From assembly GCF_000743715.1 (NCBI RefSeq), contig NZ_JQEY01000017.1:1-55746 (forward strand): a DNA stretch of 55,746 bases, read 5' to 3'. Both the position numbers and the translations under genes were made by a program. The notes below the pieces were generated by a model. That model made no database searches. It was not told the origin of the DNA and saw nothing but the letters and a program-made list of their open reading frames with translations. The stretch is from Palleronia rufa (GTDB lineage: Bacteria > Pseudomonadota > Alphaproteobacteria > Rhodobacterales > Rhodobacteraceae). Position 1 is the first letter of the stretch. Every line of letters begins with the position of its first letter. Of this stretch, positions 11,289 through 22,534 are shown piece by piece.

Positions 11289-11981
11289 CTACGCCGCCGA
11301 TGCCTCCGACCAGGCGCGATCCGATTTCACGTCCTCTCCCCGTTGATGGACCGTCATCTCGGAGGCGGGGAACGGCGCGATCAACTCGAACGCTGCCTCT
11401 GCGCTGCCAGCGAGCCACCCATCGTAATCCTCCGGCCGGAGAATGACCGGCATCCGGTCGGGGTGGGTATCGCGCACGAGGTCGTTCGGTGTCGTGGTGA
11501 CGATCGAGGAGGTCACGAGCTCGCGGTACTCGCCGCCGTAATCGCCTTGGAACCTCTGCCAGATGCCGGCGAAGGCGAAGGGCGGCCGATCTTCGTCGCC
11601 TTTCAGACCGAACCAGACATAGGTCGCGGGGTTGCGGCCTTTCGCTTCGCAGAAGCTCGTCGCCGGGACGAGGCATCGGCGCTCCTTGAAGCTTGGCTTC
11701 CAGAACCGCGACGTCCGCAGCTTGTCGTCCCGGGCGTTGTTCACCGCCTTCGGCTGGATCGGCTTGCCGGTCTTCTTCGACACCTGCGGGAGAACGAAGC
11801 CCCGATGGGTGTTCTGGAGCGTGCGCGTCCCATCGTCGTCGAGAATGACTGCCGGGGCTCTGCCTTTTGGAAATATCGCGGGAAGCGGTTCGGCGTTGCC
11901 GAGGCGGTCGTTGCCGGGGTCGACCTGGAAGAGCCGGCGCATTGCCTCCTGGGGCATCGTGTTCGCGAAGAGATTGCACAT
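11289..11981 (-). CDS. yedK: SOS response-associated peptidase / HMCES-type abasic-site protein
   Basis: A 230-residue SRAP-domain protein. The start ATG at 11981 places the catalytic cysteine at position 2 (MCNLF), which decides the start, because the initiator Met must be removed for activity. Other family marks are NARDD, RRCLVPATSFCE with the active-site Glu, and HPDRMPVIL with the His. Family members crosslink covalently to abasic sites in single-stranded DNA and shield them. Plasmid copies may protect DNA that enters as a single strand. It is transcribed away from ardC. Confidence 0.92.
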   Translation of the reverse strand: MCNLFANTMPQEAMRRLFQVDPGNDRLGNAEPLPAIFPKGRAPAVILDDDGTRTLQNTHRGFVLPQVSKKTGKPIQPKAVNNARDDKLRTSRFWKPSFKERRCLVPATSFCEAKGRNPATYVWFGLKGDEDRPPFAFAGIWQRFQGDYGGEYRELVTSSIVTTTPNDLVRDTHPDRMPVILRPEDYDGWLAGSAEAAFELIAPFPASEMTVHQRGEDVKSDRAWSEASAA

Positions 11982-12552
11982 GCGCCTGCCTCGACATCGG
12001 ACCTGACTGGCCCCTGCCGCCAGCCTATCGCCTGGCAGCACCGCGCTCTAGTCGGGCCGGGTCCGGCCCTCCCCGAGCCCCGGCCCCCTGCCCTCCCTGC
12101 GGCCTGAAGAGCGCCCGGCCCCGTCTCTGACCGAGCCGGATCCGGGCGCGGCCCGCATGGTCGTTCCGGCCGCCGGCTCTCGGCCCGTCCGGGTGACGAT
12201 CGCTGGGGCGGGTCGGATCTTCGATCCTGTCCTTTCCGGTCCCTTGGGGTTCGGGCAAGCCGAACGCCGCTGCGGGACGATCGGGAACCGCCGGTTCCCC
12301 CGGGCAAGGCCGTCCGCTTCACGGGGCGAAGGGGTGTCCCCGACGACGGTCCCTCCCTCCGGTCGGGCTGCGTCGCCGGGCGATCCCCCTCCCCTTCGCC
12401 CCTACGGACAGCCTTGCCCGGGCCCCCCTCCTGCCCTCGCCGGGAGGCAGGGTTTCAGGAGAGGCGCCGCGTTCGCGGACCTCGCCAGAACCCCCGCCCC
12501 GATTTTCGGCACCAGACCGGAGCCGGGGCACCACGACGAAGGAGGGCCAGAC
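11982..12552. other. GC-rich divergent control region between yedK and ardC
   Basis: About 570 bases without a credible gene, very rich in C on the plus strand. A strong perfect inverted repeat GGGCCGG-GT-CCGGCCC lies at 12054-12069. It must carry promoters for yedK (leftward) and ardC (rightward). No clear -35/-10 pair for ordinary sigma-70 was found. A GAAGGAGGG ribosome binding site for ardC lies at its right end. Confidence 0.5.
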
Positions 12553-13464
12553 ATGGCGACCCGCAGGAAGACCACCGCGAAGTTCGATCCCGAAGCCGAG
12601 ATCACCTCGAAGATCATCGCCGCCATCGAGGCGGGCACCCCGCCGTGGCGCTGCCCGTGGACCGGCCAAGGTGGCGGCGCACCCTTCCCCCTCCGGCATG
12701 GTGGCGAAGGTTATCGCGGCATCAACGTTCTGATGCTGTGGCTCACCGCGAGCGAAAAGGGCTACGTCTCGCCCTACTGGATGACCTACCGGCAGGCTCA
12801 GGAGATGGGCGCGCAGGTCCGCAAGGGCGAGACCTCCACCATGATCGTCAAATACGGGACCATCGAGAAAGAGGACGAGACCGGCGAGGAGGTGAAGCGC
12901 CCCTATCTCAAAGCCTACCGCGTCTTTTGCGCCGACCAGATCGACGGTCTGCGCGACAGCTACTACCGCGAGCGCGAGGCGGCGGCCGACCTCGGGACGA
13001 AGCCGATTGCCGAGATCGAGGCATATTTCGCGAAGCTGGGCGCGACCATCGAGACCACCGACGAGCCGCAAGCCTACTACCACACGGGCCGCGACGTGAT
13101 TCACATGCCGCCGATCGCTACCTTCCACGAGGCGCAGGGCTATTACGAAACCCTCGGGCATGAAGCGATCCATTATGTCGGCGGGAGCCCGCGACTAAAC
13201 CGGATCAAGAAGTTCCCGACCAAGGAAGACCGGGCGCGCGAAGAGCTCGTCGCGGAGATCGGCCAATGCCTGCTCTTCGCGAGCATCGGCCTTCAGCCGA
13301 CCATCGACCAGAGCGCGGCTTACGTCGAAAGCTGGCTCGCCGCCTTGAAGAACGACAAGAAGGCGATCTTCAAGGCCGCGCGGGAAGCGCAGAAGGCGGT
13401 GGACTACATCACCGAGCGGTGCGGCGAGACCATCGAGGCGAAGGCCGAGGGAGTGGCCGCCTAG
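12553..13464 (+). CDS. ardC: ArdC-like antirestriction protein (ssDNA-binding domain plus zinc protease-like domain)
   Basis: A 303-residue protein. The N-terminal domain (about residues 10-130) has the family segments IEAGTPPWRCPW and YRGINVLMLW, and WMTYRQAQEMGAQVRKGE. The C-terminal domain carries a zincin motif (HEAIH, His203/Glu204/His207) and a downstream acidic helix (REELVAEIG). ArdC proteins bind single-stranded DNA and protect incoming plasmid DNA from type I restriction. The start ATG follows GAAGGAGGGCCAGAC; the frame is open further upstream only because that DNA is GC-rich. Its position next to the transfer genes fits a role soon after entry. Confidence 0.92.
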   Translation: MATRRKTTAKFDPEAEITSKIIAAIEAGTPPWRCPWTGQGGGAPFPLRHGGEGYRGINVLMLWLTASEKGYVSPYWMTYRQAQEMGAQVRKGETSTMIVKYGTIEKEDETGEEVKRPYLKAYRVFCADQIDGLRDSYYREREAAADLGTKPIAEIEAYFAKLGATIETTDEPQAYYHTGRDVIHMPPIATFHEAQGYYETLGHEAIHYVGGSPRLNRIKKFPTKEDRAREELVAEIGQCLLFASIGLQPTIDQSAAYVESWLAALKNDKKAIFKAAREAQKAVDYITERCGETIEAKAEGVAA

Positions 13465-15118: not shown

Positions 15119-15535
15119 ATGATCCGGCTTACCGCCATCGCCGTTGCGATCGTTGTCGCCGCCTCGGCAACGGCGGCGGAGTGGATCTATGACCTCGAGC
15201 GCGGTCTCGACTCCTACACGATCACGGGCGATGGCGGCGCCGTCGTCCTGGTCTGCGACCCGGACCGCGCCTATAACCCGGACAAGAGCTACGCCAATTT
15301 CGTGGTGGAAATGCCCGTCGCCCGGGATGTCACGCAGGTCGTGTTCCTCGCGGAGACCGGCGAGCAGGCCGCGTTCACGACCCGCGAAGGCATCGCCACC
15401 CAGCAGGATGCCGACGCGGAGGAATGGTCGGATCTGATCGCGATGGCGCAGGCCGGCGGACGGATCGCCGTCGTCACCGAAGATGACAGCTTCACCGTGA
15501 CGGCCGATCCCATGCCGGAACTGCGCTGCGACTAG
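15119..15535 (+). CDS. Exported hypothetical protein
   Basis: A 138-residue protein with a typical Sec signal peptide (MIRLTAIAVAIVVAASATAA, cleavage before EW). The mature part has two cysteines (LVCD and LRCD at the C-terminus) that are likely to pair. AGAGAAGG lies upstream of the ATG. Its stop overlaps the stop of the convergent virC2-like gene, so the two transcripts meet tail to tail. No family is recognised; a periplasmic location is inferred. Confidence 0.7.
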   Translation: MIRLTAIAVAIVVAASATAAEWIYDLERGLDSYTITGDGGAVVLVCDPDRAYNPDKSYANFVVEMPVARDVTQVVFLAETGEQAAFTTREGIATQQDADAEEWSDLIAMAQAGGRIAVVTEDDSFTVTADPMPELRCD

Positions 15536-16284
15536 GCATCGTTGCGGACGATCTCGGTCTCCGCCGCGAACGCCGCGTCGAAATAGGCGTTGAGGACGAG
15601 CGTGTCGGACAGCACCCCGAGAGGATCACGGATGGGGGCCGTGGCCTCCCGCAACTCGGCGTCGCTCAGCGCGATCGACGAGTGCTTCGCCCGCCTGCCG
15701 TCGTCGGTCCGGCGGCTCGTCACGATCAGGGCACCGGAAAGCTCCCGCCACTTGGAGGCATCGCGGAGGGCGGCGAGGCGATGCCGCGCGCGGGTGGCGA
15801 GACCGTCGATCAGGTAATCGACGTCAATGTCGAGCTCCTTCGCCAGCTCGCGAAGCTGCGCCTCCTGCATCCGGGTCAACCAGAGGCGGATGCTGCGTGG
15901 CTTGCGGGGCCCGGCCGCTTTCCGACTCTGCGGTTGCCGTGTTTCGGGTTCAGGTTCGGCCGGCGCAGGCGTCATCGCCTCCCCTGCCCTCTCGTCCACC
16001 TCCGTTCGAGGCGGCGCCACGGCCGGGGATGATGTCTCGACCGTCGCTTCCGAAATTGTCTCAACCGGAAGCTCTTGCTCGGATGCGGGTGCCGCCTGGG
16101 TACGCCTGCCTTTCGGCGCGATCGGCGTGTCTGGCTCCACGTCGTTTCGATCCACTAGCGTCGCGATCGGCAAGGGGCCTGTCCGGGAGACAGGTGCGAG
16201 CTTCGCCCGCTTCTTCTTCTCTTTCGTGGGATGCTCGGGGTCCTGTGGCGTCGGGCTCTTCCGGGCAGGCGGGACTCTAGGCAT
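15532..16284 (-). CDS. virC2: VirC2-like protein with C-terminal ribbon-helix-helix domain
   Basis: A 250-residue protein. The first 125 residues or so are low-complexity, rich in Pro, Glu, Ala and Lys. The rest begins with a basic strand (PRSIRLWLTRMQEAQLRELAKELDI), which looks like an RHH strand and helix, followed by DYLIDGLATRARHRL. VirC2 of Ti plasmids has an RHH fold and helps VirC1 activate transfer at overdrive. The gene directly follows the ParA-like gene, overlapping it by 8 bases. The name rests on this pairing and the domain, not on a close sequence match. Confidence 0.6.
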   Translation of the reverse strand: MPRVPPARKSPTPQDPEHPTKEKKKRAKLAPVSRTGPLPIATLVDRNDVEPDTPIAPKGRRTQAAPASEQELPVETISEATVETSSPAVAPPRTEVDERAGEAMTPAPAEPEPETRQPQSRKAAGPRKPRSIRLWLTRMQEAQLRELAKELDIDVDYLIDGLATRARHRLAALRDASKWRELSGALIVTSRRTDDGRRAKHSSIALSDAELREATAPIRDPLGVLSDTLVLNAYFDAAFAAETEIVRNDA

Positions 16285-17095
16285 CGGCCATCTCCTCGGC
16301 TGCCTTGTTTGTGGCTTTCACGGCATCCATCACGTCGTCGGCAAGGTCGGCGCACATCTCGATGTCCTCCTTGAAGACATGCGCGTGCCGGGCGGTCCCC
16401 TGCCCGCTCAGAAACGTGTCGCGCGCGACCGTGAGCGGTCCCGTCGCCGAAATCCGGAAGAGCTGCTTGGTGTCCCTGATCGGCGTCGGAAGGCATGGCA
16501 GTTGGCGCAGGAAGTCGATCATCGCGCGGTCGGCATTGGCGACCTTGGCGGTCGCCTGTGCGATCTCCTCCGGCGTTCCGGCCGTCAGCAGGTTGTAGAA
16601 CGGCGTCGAGAGCTGGGTTACGACGCACCGGAAGATCGGCGCGGGCTGTCCTTCTTCGAGGGTGGCCACCGTCGCTTCGGCCCATCGCAGCGTGCGCTCC
16701 GCCATCTGATAGTCCGTGTGCTCCGGGCGGACCGGAAGCAGGACGATGTCCGCGGCCAGGACCACGTCCTCGTTCTCTTCGAGGTTGCCGGGACGGTTGT
16801 CGAGAAGGACCACATCGACGCCCCTGCTCTCCAGTTCGTTCAACTGGGAGTAGACATCCTCGATGGCCACCGGCGCGACAGAGAGCGTCAGCGCGTCGGG
16901 CCAAGACACGCGCGGGGCCGTCTCGTCCCAGGCGAACCTGTCCGAGTTCTGTTCCCAAAGCGCGATCTGGCTGTCGTTGTCGAAATCCATGATGTGCACG
17001 CGCATCCCTCTCTCGAGAAGGCCCGTGGCCAGCGCCATCATCAGCGTCGTCTTGCCTGATCCACCCTTGGTGGACATCGCGGTCACTACGATCAT
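16277..17095 (-). CDS. virC1: VirC1/ParA-like ATPase
   Basis: A 272-residue deviant Walker ATPase. The P-loop KGGSGKTT is at residues 10-17, followed by MDFDNDSQIALW (switch region) and VVLLDNRPG (Walker B). Proteins of this family segregate plasmids (ParA), or in the VirC1 case recruit relaxosomes to the cell pole and to the transfer machinery. Its RHH partner gene lies directly downstream, and the oriT-like array begins 34 bases upstream of its start. This favours a transfer role, though a partition role is possible. GAGGATGA precedes the ATG. Confidence 0.8.
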   Translation of the reverse strand: MIVVTAMSTKGGSGKTTLMMALATGLLERGMRVHIMDFDNDSQIALWEQNSDRFAWDETAPRVSWPDALTLSVAPVAIEDVYSQLNELESRGVDVVLLDNRPGNLEENEDVVLAADIVLLPVRPEHTDYQMAERTLRWAEATVATLEEGQPAPIFRCVVTQLSTPFYNLLTAGTPEEIAQATAKVANADRAMIDFLRQLPCLPTPIRDTKQLFRISATGPLTVARDTFLSGQGTARHAHVFKEDIEMCADLADDVMDAVKATNKAAEEMADA

Positions 17096-17128: not shown

Positions 17129-17502
17129 TGGCCGATCGGTGCAGCGTATTGTTGGCCGGTTGTTCTCATGGCCGCGTAGTTGAATGGCCGCCCGGCATCT
17201 TGACGTGATGGCAGGATATCTAGTTGGCCGTGCGGCGGTCTAGGCAGTTTGGCCGCCCGGGCTCTCGGTCGTATGGCCGCGTGGCCCATTTGCCGCTTGT
17301 CATGTCGGCCCTTCGGCATCTTGGTGAGATATTCGCTTGGCGCGATGTTCGATATGGTCACAAAGTGCATTTGGCGCGTTGGCGTGATGGCCGCCTATGC
17401 TGGGTGGCCCCGAGTTGCGATATGAAATATGGCCGATTGGCCGTGTGGCCCAACGTCCGTGTAGCATGGTTGATAGGTTGTCATCATGGACGCGTGGCCG
17501 TT
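17129..17502 (+). repeat. Array of degenerate TGGCCGNN octamers with 8-base periodicity
   Basis: TGGCCG occurs exactly at 17129, 17153, 17169, 17185, 17225, 17250, 17274, 17388, 17430, 17438 and 17495, with many near copies (TGGCCC, CGGCAT, TGGCGC, TGGCGT) between them. From 17129 to 17225 every spacing is a multiple of 8. Thereafter the 8-base phase continues, apart from single-base slips near 17250, 17355, 17372, 17405 and 17430. Runs of adjacent units are plain, such as 17372, 17380 and 17388, and 17430, 17438 and 17446. The array lies between the VirC1-like gene and mobC and contains the putative nick site. It is not coding. Confidence 0.85.
17209..17220 (-). other. Putative oriT nick site (T-DNA-border/RP4-like nic)
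   Basis: The plus strand reads TGGCAGGATATC. The ten bases GGCAGGATAT equal the core of octopine Ti-plasmid borders, and the complement ATATCCTGCCA contains the ATCCTG/C nick consensus of VirD2- and RP4-type relaxases. By analogy the cut would fall on the minus strand between G and C of CCTG/CCA. A VirD2-like relaxase gene lies downstream. Inference: the transferred strand leaves with its 5' end toward lower coordinates, so virC1 and ardC would enter early. Confidence 0.7.
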
Positions 17503-17851
17503 TAGTAGGGTTGGCTTTGCAACGACGGCGCTGGAGGGCCCAGAAAGTTTCTGGGCGTGAAAGGGTGAGGAAGATGTATGGCGCCCTCCACCGGCCTCCG
17601 TAGGAGCCGGAAGGGGCATTCTCTCCGACGGACCTATGGTCCGTCTGCGCGCCTCGCCATCTGGCGAGACTTGCCGCCCGGCATCCGAGTGCCCCACGAG
17701 CGGGTCACGCCGGGCGCTGGTGGAGTCCCTTCAGTCTGTTCGCTGTCGCACGCCATCCTTCTCCGAAGGAGCGACAACGGACTGAAAGAACGTTGACAGG
17801 AACAGTATTTTGTATGACATATTATGAACGCTCGTCACTTCCGGTCATACC
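17503..17851. promoter_or_regulatory. Stem-loops and promoter region upstream of mobC
   Basis: Several inverted repeats lie here: GCCCAGAAA/TTTCTGGGC (17538-17556), GACGGACC-TAT-GGTCCGTC (17627-17645), CTCGCCA-TC-TGGCGAG (17653-17668) and a larger imperfect hairpin at 17730-17786. The larger one has arms TTCAGTC/GACTGAA and TGTCGC/GCGACA, capped by TCCTTC-TCC-GAAGGA. A TTGACA box at 17793-17798 is followed by an AT-rich stretch before the mobC start. GTATGAC (17812-17818) and GTCATAC (17844-17850) form an inverted repeat around the likely transcription start and could be an autoregulatory operator. Confidence 0.6.
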
Positions 17852-18388
17852 ATGCCGAAACGCTTCACGTTCAAGACGAAGCAAGACATCCTGCGTCTGG
17901 TCGCCGAGGGGCGGAAGGACGCGGAGGTCGCCGACATCGTCGGATGTTCAAGGCCGACGGTCTCGCGGCTGCGTCGGCGCGGGATCTCGACGGATCGCAC
18001 CACCCGCGGCCGCGTCCTTCAGGTTCGGGTCTCGCAGCGGGAGGCCGACGCCTTCGATGCCGTGCTCGACGCAGAAGACATGTCCGCATCGGAGATGCTT
18101 CGCCGGTTGATGCGGCTTTCGGCCGGGCTTGCCGACTTCCGCCGCGAGGAAATCGACGCGCTGCGTCAGAGTTCGAACCAAATGAACGCGCTGGCGCGGA
18201 ACCTCGTGCAGATGCTCCAGCTCGCGCGGGCGGGCCGGCTGCGCTGGAATCGTCGCGACGGCGAGCTTGTCGTCAGGCTTCTCGATCGGGTCGAGGACGT
18301 GGCAAGAGACCTCCAGGTTGTGAAGGCGGCCGGCGCGCGGGGTGCCGTCAGACGCGTTGAAGACGTAAGGGAGGGGGCCGATGCCTGA
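17852..18388 (+). CDS. mobC: MobC/VirD1-like relaxosome accessory protein with N-terminal HTH
   Basis: A 178-residue protein. Residues 8-45 form a resolvase-like helix-turn-helix (TKQDILRLVAEGRKDAEVADIVGCSRPTVSRL). The rest matches the bacterial MobC style: VRVSQREADAFDAVL, MSASEMLRRLMR, then SNQMNALARNLVQML and a coiled helical end. MobC/VirD1 proteins bind oriT and help the relaxase open the nick site. The ATG at 17852 directly follows an inverted repeat. The stop overlaps the relaxase start (ATGCCTGA), so the two are translationally coupled. The HTH fused to MobC suggests that it also represses this operon. Confidence 0.75.
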   Translation: MPKRFTFKTKQDILRLVAEGRKDAEVADIVGCSRPTVSRLRRRGISTDRTTRGRVLQVRVSQREADAFDAVLDAEDMSASEMLRRLMRLSAGLADFRREEIDALRQSSNQMNALARNLVQMLQLARAGRLRWNRRDGELVVRLLDRVEDVARDLQVVKAAGARGAVRRVEDVREGADA

Positions 18389-20270
18389 CTGGAGAACAGT
18401 CCAGCAGGCCGTCATCGGAGAGGTTCTGCCCGATATCGGCCGGCGCAATCGCTCGATGGGCGCGTTCCCGAAGCCCCGATATAGAAAGTCCGATGCCGGT
18501 CGGGGCAGGGCAGACAAGGCCGTCGGGCTGACCAAGAACGTCGCGCGGGTGCCCCAGAGCGTCGTGAAGCGCGTATCCGCCGGCGGCTGCCACAGCCGCA
18601 AGGAGCTCACCCGGCAGATGTCCTATATCCTCCGCGACGAGGCGCTGACGGCCTCCTGGTCGAACCAGATCGGCATTGAGCGGAGCTTTGAGGAAGACGG
18701 GATCGCGCGCGTCGTCGCGGACTGGACCGGATCCTGGGTCGGTGCGCCGAAGCGTGGGCATACCGACCACATCATCCTGTCGTTCCCGAAGGGCACCGAT
18801 GCCGGGCTGGCCGAGGAGATCGCGCGGGAATGGGGGCAGGAGGTGTTCGGGAGCGGCTTCTACGCCGATCGGTTCCGTTACGTAGCCGCGCTGCACCACA
18901 ACACCGAGCACGTCCACGCGCATTTCGTCGTGGACAAGGTGGGCATGGATCATGAAGCGTTCCTGTCGATCAGCCGTCATTCGGAGATCAACTACGACAT
19001 GATGCGCGAGCTGCACGCGCAAATCGCGTCCGAGCACGGTCTGGCGCTCAATGCGACGCCCCGCCTGTCGCGCGGGCTCATAGAGAACGCGCCTCGTGAG
19101 ACGGATGTGCAGGCTGCGCTGCAAGAGGGACGGGAGCCCTATGTCGAGCCGCTGTCCTTCGTCCAGCGCATCCAGCGCGAGGCATCCCTTCGGTCCTACG
19201 CGGCCGACTACCGATCGCTGGCCGGGATCGCGTCGATGCTGGACGACACTGAAGGCGACGGGTTCGCGGCCCGCCTGTTCCAGGGCGCCAGCGCGGCCGC
19301 CGCGCATCTTCTGAAAGGAGAACCGATCGTGTCCGATTTTGCCGATGTGAACGACATTCCCGCCGACACGATCGACCCGGCGGGCAGGATCGCGGCCGCG
19401 CGCGAGGCGCTGATTTCCGAGGCGCAGATGGCCTGGACGAAGATTCGGAACATGGAGCCGGGTCCGGAGCGTGTAGAGCTTGAAGGACAGTTCGCGGACC
19501 AGGCACGGTCCACCACGCAGCTCATCGGGCAGGACGCGTTCTTCCAGTCCCACGCCCGGGGCCCGGGCAGGGAGGTCGATCCCTACGCCGTCGCGCCGGT
19601 TGCGCTTCTTCAGGAGCGCGCGCGAGGTGACGGACGCTTCGCGGCCGAGGCCGATGCGGCGCTCGATGCCATCCGGGACCGGCTCGCCGACGCCTTCGAG
19701 CGGTTCGAGAGCAGGTTCGAGTGGGGCGACACCAATGCCGAGGAGATGGCGGCGCGCTTCGCCGCCGCCGATCGGAGCGCAGCGCAGATCCATGAGTGGC
19801 GCCCGGACGATCCGGATCGCCGGGCCGAATGGCTCGAGATGGAACGCGAGATGCGCGCCGAGGCAGAAAAGGTCGTCGCGTCCATCCCCGTCGGCCGCGA
19901 CCTTCTCGAGGACTTGGCGCGGCAGGAGCTGATGGAGGCCGAGCGGACCGACCGTCTGTCCGATATCGCCGCGCTTGACCGCCTGGCGAAGGAGGTTCGC
20001 GCCGACATGAGCGACGGCGATCTGGACCGGGTGGGGCGAGGGGAAATGGACCCGCTCATCGAGAAGATCAACGATCCGGGTCTACGCGCCGCCGTCGGAT
20101 CGGAGCTGCGGAACATGGGGCGCGTCGAAGATGGCCAGGACCTCGACGTGCGCGACAGCGAACCGGTCGGACGGTATCGTGATCTCGCGAGTGTCCATGA
20201 ACGCGCGGCCCATCGGGCCGAGCGGGGCAGGGGGCGTGACGAGGACATGGACCACGTGATCGACTTCTAG
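18381..20270 (+). CDS. virD2: VirD2-like relaxase
   Basis: A 629-residue relaxase. Motif I with the likely nucleophile Tyr82 lies in LTRQMSYIL. Motif II is HTDHIILSFPKG near residue 130. Motif III is HHNTEHVHAHFVVDK (His173, His177 and His179 for metal binding). It would cut the nic site, stay bound to the 5' end and pilot the strand through the coupling protein. The C-terminal 400 residues are charged and helical, without a recognised domain, and probably include the secretion signal. It lies between mobC (8-base overlap) and virD4 (17-base gap), as in Vir/Tra relaxosome operons. Confidence 0.85.
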   Translation: MPDWRTVQQAVIGEVLPDIGRRNRSMGAFPKPRYRKSDAGRGRADKAVGLTKNVARVPQSVVKRVSAGGCHSRKELTRQMSYILRDEALTASWSNQIGIERSFEEDGIARVVADWTGSWVGAPKRGHTDHIILSFPKGTDAGLAEEIAREWGQEVFGSGFYADRFRYVAALHHNTEHVHAHFVVDKVGMDHEAFLSISRHSEINYDMMRELHAQIASEHGLALNATPRLSRGLIENAPRETDVQAALQEGREPYVEPLSFVQRIQREASLRSYAADYRSLAGIASMLDDTEGDGFAARLFQGASAAAAHLLKGEPIVSDFADVNDIPADTIDPAGRIAAAREALISEAQMAWTKIRNMEPGPERVELEGQFADQARSTTQLIGQDAFFQSHARGPGREVDPYAVAPVALLQERARGDGRFAAEADAALDAIRDRLADAFERFESRFEWGDTNAEEMAARFAAADRSAAQIHEWRPDDPDRRAEWLEMEREMRAEAEKVVASIPVGRDLLEDLARQELMEAERTDRLSDIAALDRLAKEVRADMSDGDLDRVGRGEMDPLIEKINDPGLRAAVGSELRNMGRVEDGQDLDVRDSEPVGRYRDLASVHERAAHRAERGRGRDEDMDHVIDF

Positions 20271-20287
20271 GGCGAAGGAGCCGCGAC

Positions 20288-22534
20288 ATGCTGCAATCCA
20301 TGGACAGCGCCTGGCGGTTCCCGATCGCCGCCACGGTCGGACTGGCCGCCGGCACTTATATCGGAGCGGTCCTCGCCACGCTCTACGCGATTTTCGTCTT
20401 CGGGGACGGCGTGAACACGTGGAATGTGCTGGAGCCCTGGTTCCTGCGATATTCGCCGGCGCGGATCGCTGCCAATCCGGATGTTCGATACACGATTTGG
20501 CTCATCACGGCCTTTCCGGCCGTCGTGCTGGCAGGCGTCGGCATTAACTCGGTCCAGCGCGGGCGCCTCTCGTCCTACGACGATTCCCACTTTCAGACCC
20601 GGACCGAACTCAAGCGGAACAAGATGACCGCGCCGGTGGAGCGTCCCGGGTTCGTTTACGCGAAGATGACGAAGCCGCAGCGGCCGGGGCCGTTCGTGTC
20701 GGCAGAGCCGAACCGGTTCCCGCACGCGATCATGATCGGTCCGACCGGCCGCGGTAAGGGCGTGGGGTTCGTCTCGCCGAACCTCCTGAAGTTCGGTGGC
20801 AGCGCGATCGTCCTCGACCAGAAAGGCGAGAATTTCGAGAACACCGCGATCCATCGGGAGCGCGGGCTGGGCAACAGGATCTGGTATTTCTCGCCCTTCG
20901 ACTACGTGATGCCCGAAGGGACCGACGACACGACCCCGGTCTATACACGCACGCACCGGTTCAATCCGCTCGCCCGCATCGCCGCGCTGCCGAGCTGGGA
21001 GCAGCAATACACCGCGATCAACGCGATGGCCGACCTGTTCCTCATCGTCGAGAGTGTGAACGCGCAGAGCTTCTTCCAGGCCGGCCGCAGCCTCTTTGTC
21101 GGCGCCTGCCTCTACGCGATCGAAAAGGGCCGACCCACGATCGGCGAGGCGTTGCGGCTGATGACCGGGGGCGGGTTGAAGAAGGACAGCTACGTCGCCA
21201 TCGCCGAGTCCACGTCCAACCCGACCGTTGCGGAAATTTTCCTGACGATGGCGGACGAGACCGACAAGATCCTCGACAGCTATGTCAGCGTGATCCGCGG
21301 GGCAGGGCTGGAGCTCTGGCTTGACCCCGCCGTCGATCGGGCCACGAGCGAGAGCGATTTCGACTTCTCGACGTTCCGATCCGAGCCGCAGTCGCTTTAC
21401 ATCGTCGTGCAGCCCGAGCACCTGAAGACGCTAGCGCCGCTCATCCGCCTCCTCTTCGCCGATGCGATCGCCAGCCTGCAACGCAAGCTGCCAGGGCCGG
21501 ACGAACCGCATCCAGTCATGTTCCTGATGGACGAGTTCGACCAGCTCGGCCGCCAGCCGATGGTCCTCAACAGCATCAAGACGATCCGGCAATATGGCGG
21601 CCGGTTCTTCATCATCACGCAGTCGATCCCCGGTCTCGAGAGCATCTACGGGGAGACCGACCGCCGAGCGCTTCTCGCGGGGGCCGGGGTGCAGATCTAC
21701 ATGACGCCACAGGACGACCGGACCGCTCAGGTTCTGTCCGATGCGCTCGGCAAGCGGACGACCGTCAGCACCACCCGATCGCAATCGGTCATTCGGAAGT
21801 TCGACGAGAGCGGTAATGTCAGCCGTCGGTCGGAGGAACGCCCGTTGATCTCGCCAGCCGAAATCCTGCGCTTCCCGCTCGATCGCGTCCTGGTGCTGCC
21901 CGAGGGACAATACCCGATCCTGGCCCACCACATCCGGTATTTCGAGGATCATCACTTCGAGCGCATCTATGCGGCCCGGGTCGGCCACGAACTGCCCTAT
22001 CCGCCGCTCACCGAACCCGCCAAGCGGGCCAAGAAGATTGTCACCGCAGCGCCTGCCGAGACGAAACCGCTCACGCAGGAGCAGATGGTGTCCGGTCTCG
22101 CCGAACAGCAAAGCGGCTACGCCAGCCTCGCCGGTCGGGCGGAGCAGAAGCAGCGGCTCACATCCTCCGCCTCAGCTGGGCGTACCGCACCAACCAAGCG
22201 AGTCGATGCCCCTAACGCAAAAGAAGTCGCTGCCGAGTTCGAGGACGCGCGAGAGAGTGAGACTCGTCCGTCGTCGTCTCCTGTTCAGAGCGAGCGCGCA
22301 CAACCGTTAGCACGTCCGACCCCGGCAACTCACAAAGGCCGCCGGCCGCCTTCAAAGCGGGCCGATGCACCGAGCGCCGCGACAGTGGCGGCGCCGTTCG
22401 AGACAGAAGGGCAGAGGCGCGATAAGCGAGAAGCCGTCAGAGAAAGCGGCGCGGCAGATACGACGATTGAAAGAGATCCTTCGCGACCCGCCGGAACACG
22501 TTCTCGTCCCAGAAGGATCGCGGGCTCTTCCTGA
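20288..22534 (+). CDS. virD4: VirD4/TraG-type IV coupling protein
   Basis: A 748-residue inner-membrane ATPase that connects the relaxosome to a type IV secretion channel. Two membrane helices lie at about residues 11-38 and 68-86. The Walker A loop is GPTGRGKG (151-158) and the Walker B is MFLMDEFDQLG. IITQSIPGLESIYG is the family's conserved Gln-containing motif. The last 150 residues are a proline/alanine-rich, charged tail that may recognise substrates. The ATG follows GGCGAAGGAGC. No virB/trb channel genes follow; the operon ends here and is replaced by metabolic genes after a 370-base gap. Confidence 0.92.
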   Translation: MLQSMDSAWRFPIAATVGLAAGTYIGAVLATLYAIFVFGDGVNTWNVLEPWFLRYSPARIAANPDVRYTIWLITAFPAVVLAGVGINSVQRGRLSSYDDSHFQTRTELKRNKMTAPVERPGFVYAKMTKPQRPGPFVSAEPNRFPHAIMIGPTGRGKGVGFVSPNLLKFGGSAIVLDQKGENFENTAIHRERGLGNRIWYFSPFDYVMPEGTDDTTPVYTRTHRFNPLARIAALPSWEQQYTAINAMADLFLIVESVNAQSFFQAGRSLFVGACLYAIEKGRPTIGEALRLMTGGGLKKDSYVAIAESTSNPTVAEIFLTMADETDKILDSYVSVIRGAGLELWLDPAVDRATSESDFDFSTFRSEPQSLYIVVQPEHLKTLAPLIRLLFADAIASLQRKLPGPDEPHPVMFLMDEFDQLGRQPMVLNSIKTIRQYGGRFFIITQSIPGLESIYGETDRRALLAGAGVQIYMTPQDDRTAQVLSDALGKRTTVSTTRSQSVIRKFDESGNVSRRSEERPLISPAEILRFPLDRVLVLPEGQYPILAHHIRYFEDHHFERIYAARVGHELPYPPLTEPAKRAKKIVTAAPAETKPLTQEQMVSGLAEQQSGYASLAGRAEQKQRLTSSASAGRTAPTKRVDAPNAKEVAAEFEDARESETRPSSSPVQSERAQPLARPTPATHKGRRPPSKRADAPSAATVAAPFETEGQRRDKREAVRESGAADTTIERDPSRPAGTRSRPRRIAGSS

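Follow-up and report, generated by a model that had tools for sequence, protein, structure and literature searches.

The locus considered here raises the question of what a long, phased array of short repeats does between a gene for a VirC1-family ATPase and the genes of a relaxase operon. The array lies at 17129..17511 of contig NZ_JQEY01000017.1 of Palleronia rufa, and the whole stretch of 55,746 nucleotides that was analysed is referred to as the window. To our knowledge, it is unsettled which DNA is read by VirC2 and why the overdrives of T-DNA (transferred DNA) systems look so unlike each other. The array is probably a cis-acting docking track comparable to overdrive, or T-DNA transfer stimulator sequence (TSS), on which a stack of VirC2-like proteins would assemble with VirC1 beside a candidate origin of transfer (oriT).

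The 8-base-pair (bp) phased array is real. Compared with shuffled sequence, autocorrelation is raised at lags 8, 16 and 24 (z 5.4, 5.8 and 4.7), with values of 0.5 at lag 7 and 1.2 at lag 9. When the 55.7 kb are scanned in segments of 375 bases at steps of 25, the three best lag-8 segments and six of the best ten overlap the array, the other four lying at 53.3 and 54.9 kb. A cyclic-profile hidden Markov model (HMM) with rare slips gains 99 nats of log-likelihood at step 8, as compared to 16 at step 7, 31 at step 9 and 11-20 for step 8 in ten dinucleotide shuffles. The original prediction had described eleven exact TGGCCG hexamers in 17129-17502, a few single-base slips and a distance of 34 bases to the ParA gene, and all of this is confirmed. 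Shuffled sequences contain 0.54 such hexamers on average and 4 at most (1000 shuffles); six one-base insertions are decoded by the HMM (near 17467, 17423, 17398, 17371, 17353 and 17242); and the decoded array, 47 octamers in 383 bases, starts at a distance of 34 bases from the start codon of ParA. Compared with the hexamer, the unit is less strict, with about four specified bases (TGGC on the plus strand, GCCA on the minus strand) and four weak positions, GCCAnnnn on the minus strand. Because TGGCCG is over-represented across the whole window (138 copies versus 73 expected), the evidence for the array is the phase and not the hexamer. A coding origin was ruled out, as a step of 8 is not a multiple of 3.

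Arrays of this kind also stand in front of related VirC1-like genes. The 700 bases upstream of each of 68 such genes, taken from plasmids and genomes and including many near copies, show a peak at step 8 in 64 regions (z 4.2 to 29.8); L080 and L098 offered no usable upstream DNA or open reading frame. Peaks at other steps are found in two Jannaschia loci (L032 and L047, step 7, z 4.6) and in L072 (step 12, z 6.4, its step 8 reaching 5.5), and L048 is the sole region without any peak. By upstream similarity the 68 regions form 15 groups, 14 of which are octad. In a control of 311 tiles taken from other parts of the window and of 16 of these loci, the step-8 z has a mean of -0.02 and a standard deviation of 1.13, with two values above 4 and a maximum of 5.7. 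The highest octad values among the 68 belong to two Maritalea loci, L073 (23.1) and L038 (29.8). L038 is typed MOBF and carries a VirC1-like gene with an octad array; it also encodes a further ParA and has a partition determinant in its annotation. The repeated word varies by clade (gGCCAanc, cGGcGCna, gctGGAgt, gCGGAann, CaGGCana, GCAAAACa and others). The overdrive- or centromere-like VirC2/VirC1 array proposed at the outset is thus upheld as to the excess at lag 8 and the arrays upstream of related virC1 genes and corrected as to TGGCCG: the step is kept (mostly 8, sometimes 7 or 9), the word is not.

No 8-bp array precedes ten distant or truncated matches (L101-L110, step-8 z at most 3.3), and z is at most 2.3 in 12 of the 13 distant ParA matches with enough upstream DNA (14 matches in all, L111-L124). 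Upstream of one ParA match, on a Kocuria contig (L112), a weak step-8 signal is seen (z 4.1). An ordinary-looking pair of ParA and ribbon-helix-helix (RHH) genes, L154, has an 8-bp array at about 1981-2110, around the ParA start.

The array accompanies VirC1/VirC2 rather than the relaxase. A relaxase search matched 42 of 198 family genomes, and 20 of 57 places were used, a manual selection mainly of the highest-ranking matches; not among them are the window, four closer relatives (G087, G047, G403 and G023) and a further 32 places with mostly weaker matches. In each of the six loci with VirC1, an array precedes the VirC1-like gene (z 7.9-18.5). The step is 7 in L231, L232, L234, L235 and L236 (z 7.9 to 15.0) and 9 in L230 (2430-3130, z 18.5), where a match to the VirC2 profile lies downstream. 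The 14 loci in which no VirC1 was found within the 4.6-8 kb fetched per locus have no comparable array. Their best tiles reach 4.8 at step 7 (L228) and 4.4 at step 8 (L225), each in one of three runs, barring one unrepeated step-8 value of 5.0 in L239 (then 3.8, then 4.0-4.4); step-9 blips of 5.4 and 5.0 occur in L225 and L227. Together with the MOBF locus L038 and its array, these results rule out a dependence of the array on the relaxase. A universal step of 8 is ruled out as well, step 7 appearing at two distinct places in the tree of VirC1 proteins and step 9 in one locus. On this tree, which comprises 48 of 86 proteins and carries seven manually assigned Ti labels (L158-L161, scanned for arrays beforehand, and L163-L165, scanned afterwards), step labels are clustered: five changes account for all labels, versus a shuffled mean of 15.9.

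Canonical VirC loci extend the picture. L125 has a VirC1 gene (Pfam 2e-78) with VirC2 and VirD1; L155 and L157 carry an annotated virD1 and are matched by the VirC1 of L125 (L155 also by its VirC2), and a VirD1/MobC-family gene is annotated in L156. Octad arrays lie between virC1 and virD1 in all four, with step-8 z of 6.4 in L125, 10.6 in L155, 9.6 in L157 and 30.1 in L156. L157 is classified by MOB-suite as conjugative, L155 and L156 as non-mobilizable. A very regular heptad array is present in L162, Phaeobacter inhibens pP66_h (2226-2985, z 24.1).

An array that travels with the nick site is expected at T-DNA borders. Four tumour-inducing (Ti) and root-inducing (Ri) plasmids were scanned at 19 border-like sites. 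A perfect 8-bp tandem array lies directly to the right of a border-like site in pRi2659 (TTCGTCAG, step-8 z 30.7) and in pTiS4 (TGCATCCG, 19.5), and octamer arrays thus exist elsewhere too, a correction to the original prediction, which knew of none described. The window array shares the 8-bp tandem unit with these two, other overdrive sites not clearly so. A published passage mentions repeats of the TSS unit on an Ri plasmid and states no length for the unit (PMC10920640). Right flanks exceed a step-8 z of 3 at 6 of the 19 sites (the two perfect arrays and four at 3.1 to 5.8), and none of the 18 testable left flanks exceeds 2.2. The left flank of the pTi15955 site at 101939 has a step-7 z of 4.3.

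Within the array, the specified core changes more slowly than the spacer. Between the window and Palleronia aestuarii L046, the nearest fetched relative at the locus (ParA identity 98%), changes affect 5 of 192 core positions, 23 of 193 spacer positions (p 6e-4) and 13 of 313 flanking positions. The core changed less than the spacer in all eight groups compared, with p below 0.05 in four. The loci used include 5 of 6 in the Gemmobacter group, 8 of 19 in the Sulfitobacter group, 10 of 24 in the Tabrizicola group and 2 of 3 in Jannaschia, and comparisons within a group are not independent.

The gene order places the array in a transfer setting. The ParA ATPase gene (16277..17095, minus strand) belongs to the VirC1 family by the curated Pfam model PF07015 (1.1e-17, 64.6 bits, cut-off 24), a model that also includes ParA genes without an array; the VirC2-like gene (15532..16284) lies on the same strand. 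A distance of 756 bases separates the VirC1-family gene from a plus-strand operon (17852-22534). This operon encodes a helix-turn-helix (HTH) accessory protein in the place of mobC/virD1 (17852..18388, HTH_23 5e-9), a relaxase with a MobA/VirD2-like nuclease domain (18381..20270, PF03432 6.8e-14) and a VirD4/TraG-type coupling protein (20288..22534, PF02534 2.7e-76). The HTH gene has no match to Pfam MobC, and its likeness to MobC is one of position. The divergent virC1-virC2/virD1-virD2 layout, for which pTiBo542 was used for comparison, is found in the window and in 13 of the 14 relatives fetched from 18 plasmid matches (H11-H14 left out), Maritalea L038 being the exception; in both the window and 13 of these 14, virC1 and the mobC-relaxase operon flank the array. 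VirB4-type matches are present on other contigs of the genome (C25, 2e-25; C1, weak). Near the transfer genes there are also a look-alike, judged by eye, of an SOS-response-associated peptidase (11289-12041) and an ArdC-type gene (12325-13464, PF08401).

The intergenic DNA consists of two parts, the array on the virC1 side and a strongly folding region on the HTH/mobC-like side. The latter, which reaches from the array to the mobC-like gene (17515..17815), is a candidate oriT: its single-strand DNA fold has a z of -4.08, equalled by 0 of 100 shuffles, and inverted-repeat arms are read from the sequence at 17729-17749 and 17771-17788. A plus-strand block of the GTTGRCNGGAANNGTATTNTG type (17792..17818), a candidate for the nic/oriT core or for the mobC promoter, occurs in a looser form in 12 of 15 loci examined, and 31 of the 239 loci fetched match the pattern exactly. 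Unlike the words of the array, this block keeps its sequence across several clades. Block and stem-loop lie about 280 bases from the array and mark a candidate location of nic. A nick motif of the TATCCTG type is not common to the relatives in general. Another candidate nick site, the Ti-border-like TGGCAGGATAT within the array at 17209-17219, was ruled out, as it is changed in the P. aestuarii copy.

The claim that the partner is an RHH protein receives support from structure prediction. AlphaFold2 gives the window VirC2-like protein a strand-helix-helix fold twice in one chain, so that two RHH modules are predicted at residues 128-171 and 198-249, with 10-residue means of the predicted local distance difference test of 85-96 within both and low confidence in the N-terminal part. 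Among the best 50 of 80 PDB matches, the highest template modelling score (0.45/0.47) is that of VirC2, 2rh3. The protein may function like VirC2, its sequence not placing it in that family.

In the mechanism that we propose, each octamer would hold one VirC2-like protein. The two RHH modules would form an asymmetric pseudo-dimer, and the sites could therefore be non-palindromic direct repeats. Neighbouring proteins might stack at a fixed step, by analogy with the omega dimers on parS of pSM19035, and the stack would recruit the ParA-type ATPase VirC1. VirC1 would then promote assembly of the relaxase at the adjacent oriT and bring the complex to the coupling protein. This docking model leans on published passages reporting that VirC1 binds overdrive (PMC4285021), that it takes part in assembling the relaxosome and in docking at the cell pole (PMC4949242), and that activation of the ATPase in the omega/delta system of pSM19035 needs four or more contiguous repeats (PMC9499535). 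Given its distance of only 34 bases to virC1, repression of virC1-virC2 may be a further role of the array.

A different function would be that of a partition centromere (parS), with the VirC1-like ParA and the RHH protein segregating the replicon and the neighbourhood of transfer genes being incidental. ParA, an RHH protein and contiguous short repeats are indeed the architecture described in passages on pSM19035 and TP228 (PMC9499535, PMC7308502); step 7, as in the omega heptads, is found among the relatives, and the ordinary-looking ParA-RHH pair of L154 also goes with an 8-bp array (z 7.6). Nevertheless, the position between virC1 and the mobC-relaxase operon, shared by nearly all fetched relatives, makes partition unlikely, as do the strong arrays of pRi2659 and pTiS4, which are at border-like sites and not before virC1 (step-8 z at most 3.5). 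Moreover, VirC1/VirC2 are described in print as serving transfer and not cell division (PMC8406263), and Maritalea L038 has its own ParA and partition determinant besides the array.

The same border arrays of pRi2659 and pTiS4 speak against a mere operator, through which the RHH protein would repress virC1-virC2, and perhaps mobC, by many weak sites. The short distance between the array end and the virC1 start fits such a function, and omega sites are reported in one passage to overlap promoters (PMC9499535), but 47 units in 383 bases are, by general knowledge, long for an operator, and we regard this explanation as quite improbable. It is very improbable that the array is a decaying tandem repeat or a cluster of replication iterons unlinked to VirC. 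The units are degenerate, slips are present and the core is faster than the flanks in five of eight groups, as decay would suggest; against it, the 14 octad groups share the step but differ in their words, the core is slower than the spacer in every group compared, and the array is associated with VirC1 in the relaxase-anchored comparison.

The docking-track reading remains the preferred one. The array, its step, the synteny, the association with VirC1 and the slower change of the core relative to the spacer are shown, and the identity of the binder, the position of nic and the function are inferred. Several results weigh against it. Among PF07015 matches at large, 26 of 30 loci are without an array (step-8 z below 5), and the four that reach 5 include the window itself and one AT-rich low-complexity locus. 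The 9-bp array of L230 emerged on re-inspection after the scan at steps 7 and 8 had missed it. No array precedes virC1 in pTiBo542, R. etli p42a, M. mediterraneum and Bradyrhizobium sp. 183 (step-8 z at most 2.7; elsewhere on p42a and in Mesorhizobium and Bradyrhizobium none was sought), nor in pTi15955, pRi2659 and pTiS4 (at most 3.5). At 13 of the 19 border-like sites the right-flank z does not exceed 3, and it is 1.9 at the classical octopine overdrive (pTi15955 at 100100), which speaks against a simple rule. Arrays as a whole change fast, because the core outpaces the flanking DNA in the five groups mentioned. The correlation of word similarity with the identity of the VirC2-like proteins is weak (Mantel 0.22 over 17 loci, a value reached in 29 of 2000 permutations), and that with the identity of VirC1 is weaker still (Mantel 0.14, 229 of 2000). 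None of 10 members of the partner family matches Pfam VirC2 (PF07181) at E 1, hhalign against 11 VirC2 or VirC2-like proteins gives a probability of 1.3% (E 0.039), and the Foldseek E of the window protein to VirC2 is as high as 1.7.

More tentatively, and with somewhat less than even confidence, overdrive may be one case of a general element. Alphaproteobacterial VirC1/VirC2 relaxosomes would come with an extended phased array of conserved step (7, 8 or 9 bp, the values clustering by clade), and its word would drift together with the tandem-RHH protein. The T-DNA overdrive would be what was once the oriT array of a conjugative ancestor plasmid, relocated along with the nick site. Both this proposal and the docking-track reading are graded lower because three VirC1/VirC2 plasmids without known T-DNA have no local array. 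Should conservation lie in the step and not in the word, a search by phase could reveal overdrives and oriT enhancers on many plasmids, and a partition-like RHH/ParA machine would be at work in conjugation. The finding opens gel-shift and deletion tests on ordinary plasmids of marine bacteria. In the literature searched, which did not cover the older overdrive papers, no phased arrays at conjugative oriTs and no step shared with overdrive were found; this is weak evidence of novelty.

Three known systems resemble the window array. Like the window, parS of pSM19035 (omega RHH, delta ParA) combines a ParA, an RHH protein and contiguous non-palindromic short repeats. Its step is 7 and its unit WATCACW, heptads that the window array does not contain, whereas the window has step 8, GCCAnnnn, a single chain with two predicted RHH modules and relaxase genes nearby. 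The parH site of TP228 (ParG RHH, ParF ParA) has a 4+4 spacing. It is likewise described, in a passage on the site, as a series of degenerate tetramer boxes separated by spacers (PMC7308502), and differs in being a partition system without a relaxase setting. The overdrive/TSS of Ti and Ri plasmids is a cis element beside a relaxase target, as the window array may also be, and shares with it the link to VirC1/VirC2, and in pRi2659 and pTiS4 it is accompanied by a perfect 8-bp tandem array. The octopine overdrive differs in being short and hardly octameric. Unlike overdrive/TSS, the window array consists of about 47 degenerate units with another word, and it stands directly upstream of virC1, beside a candidate oriT.
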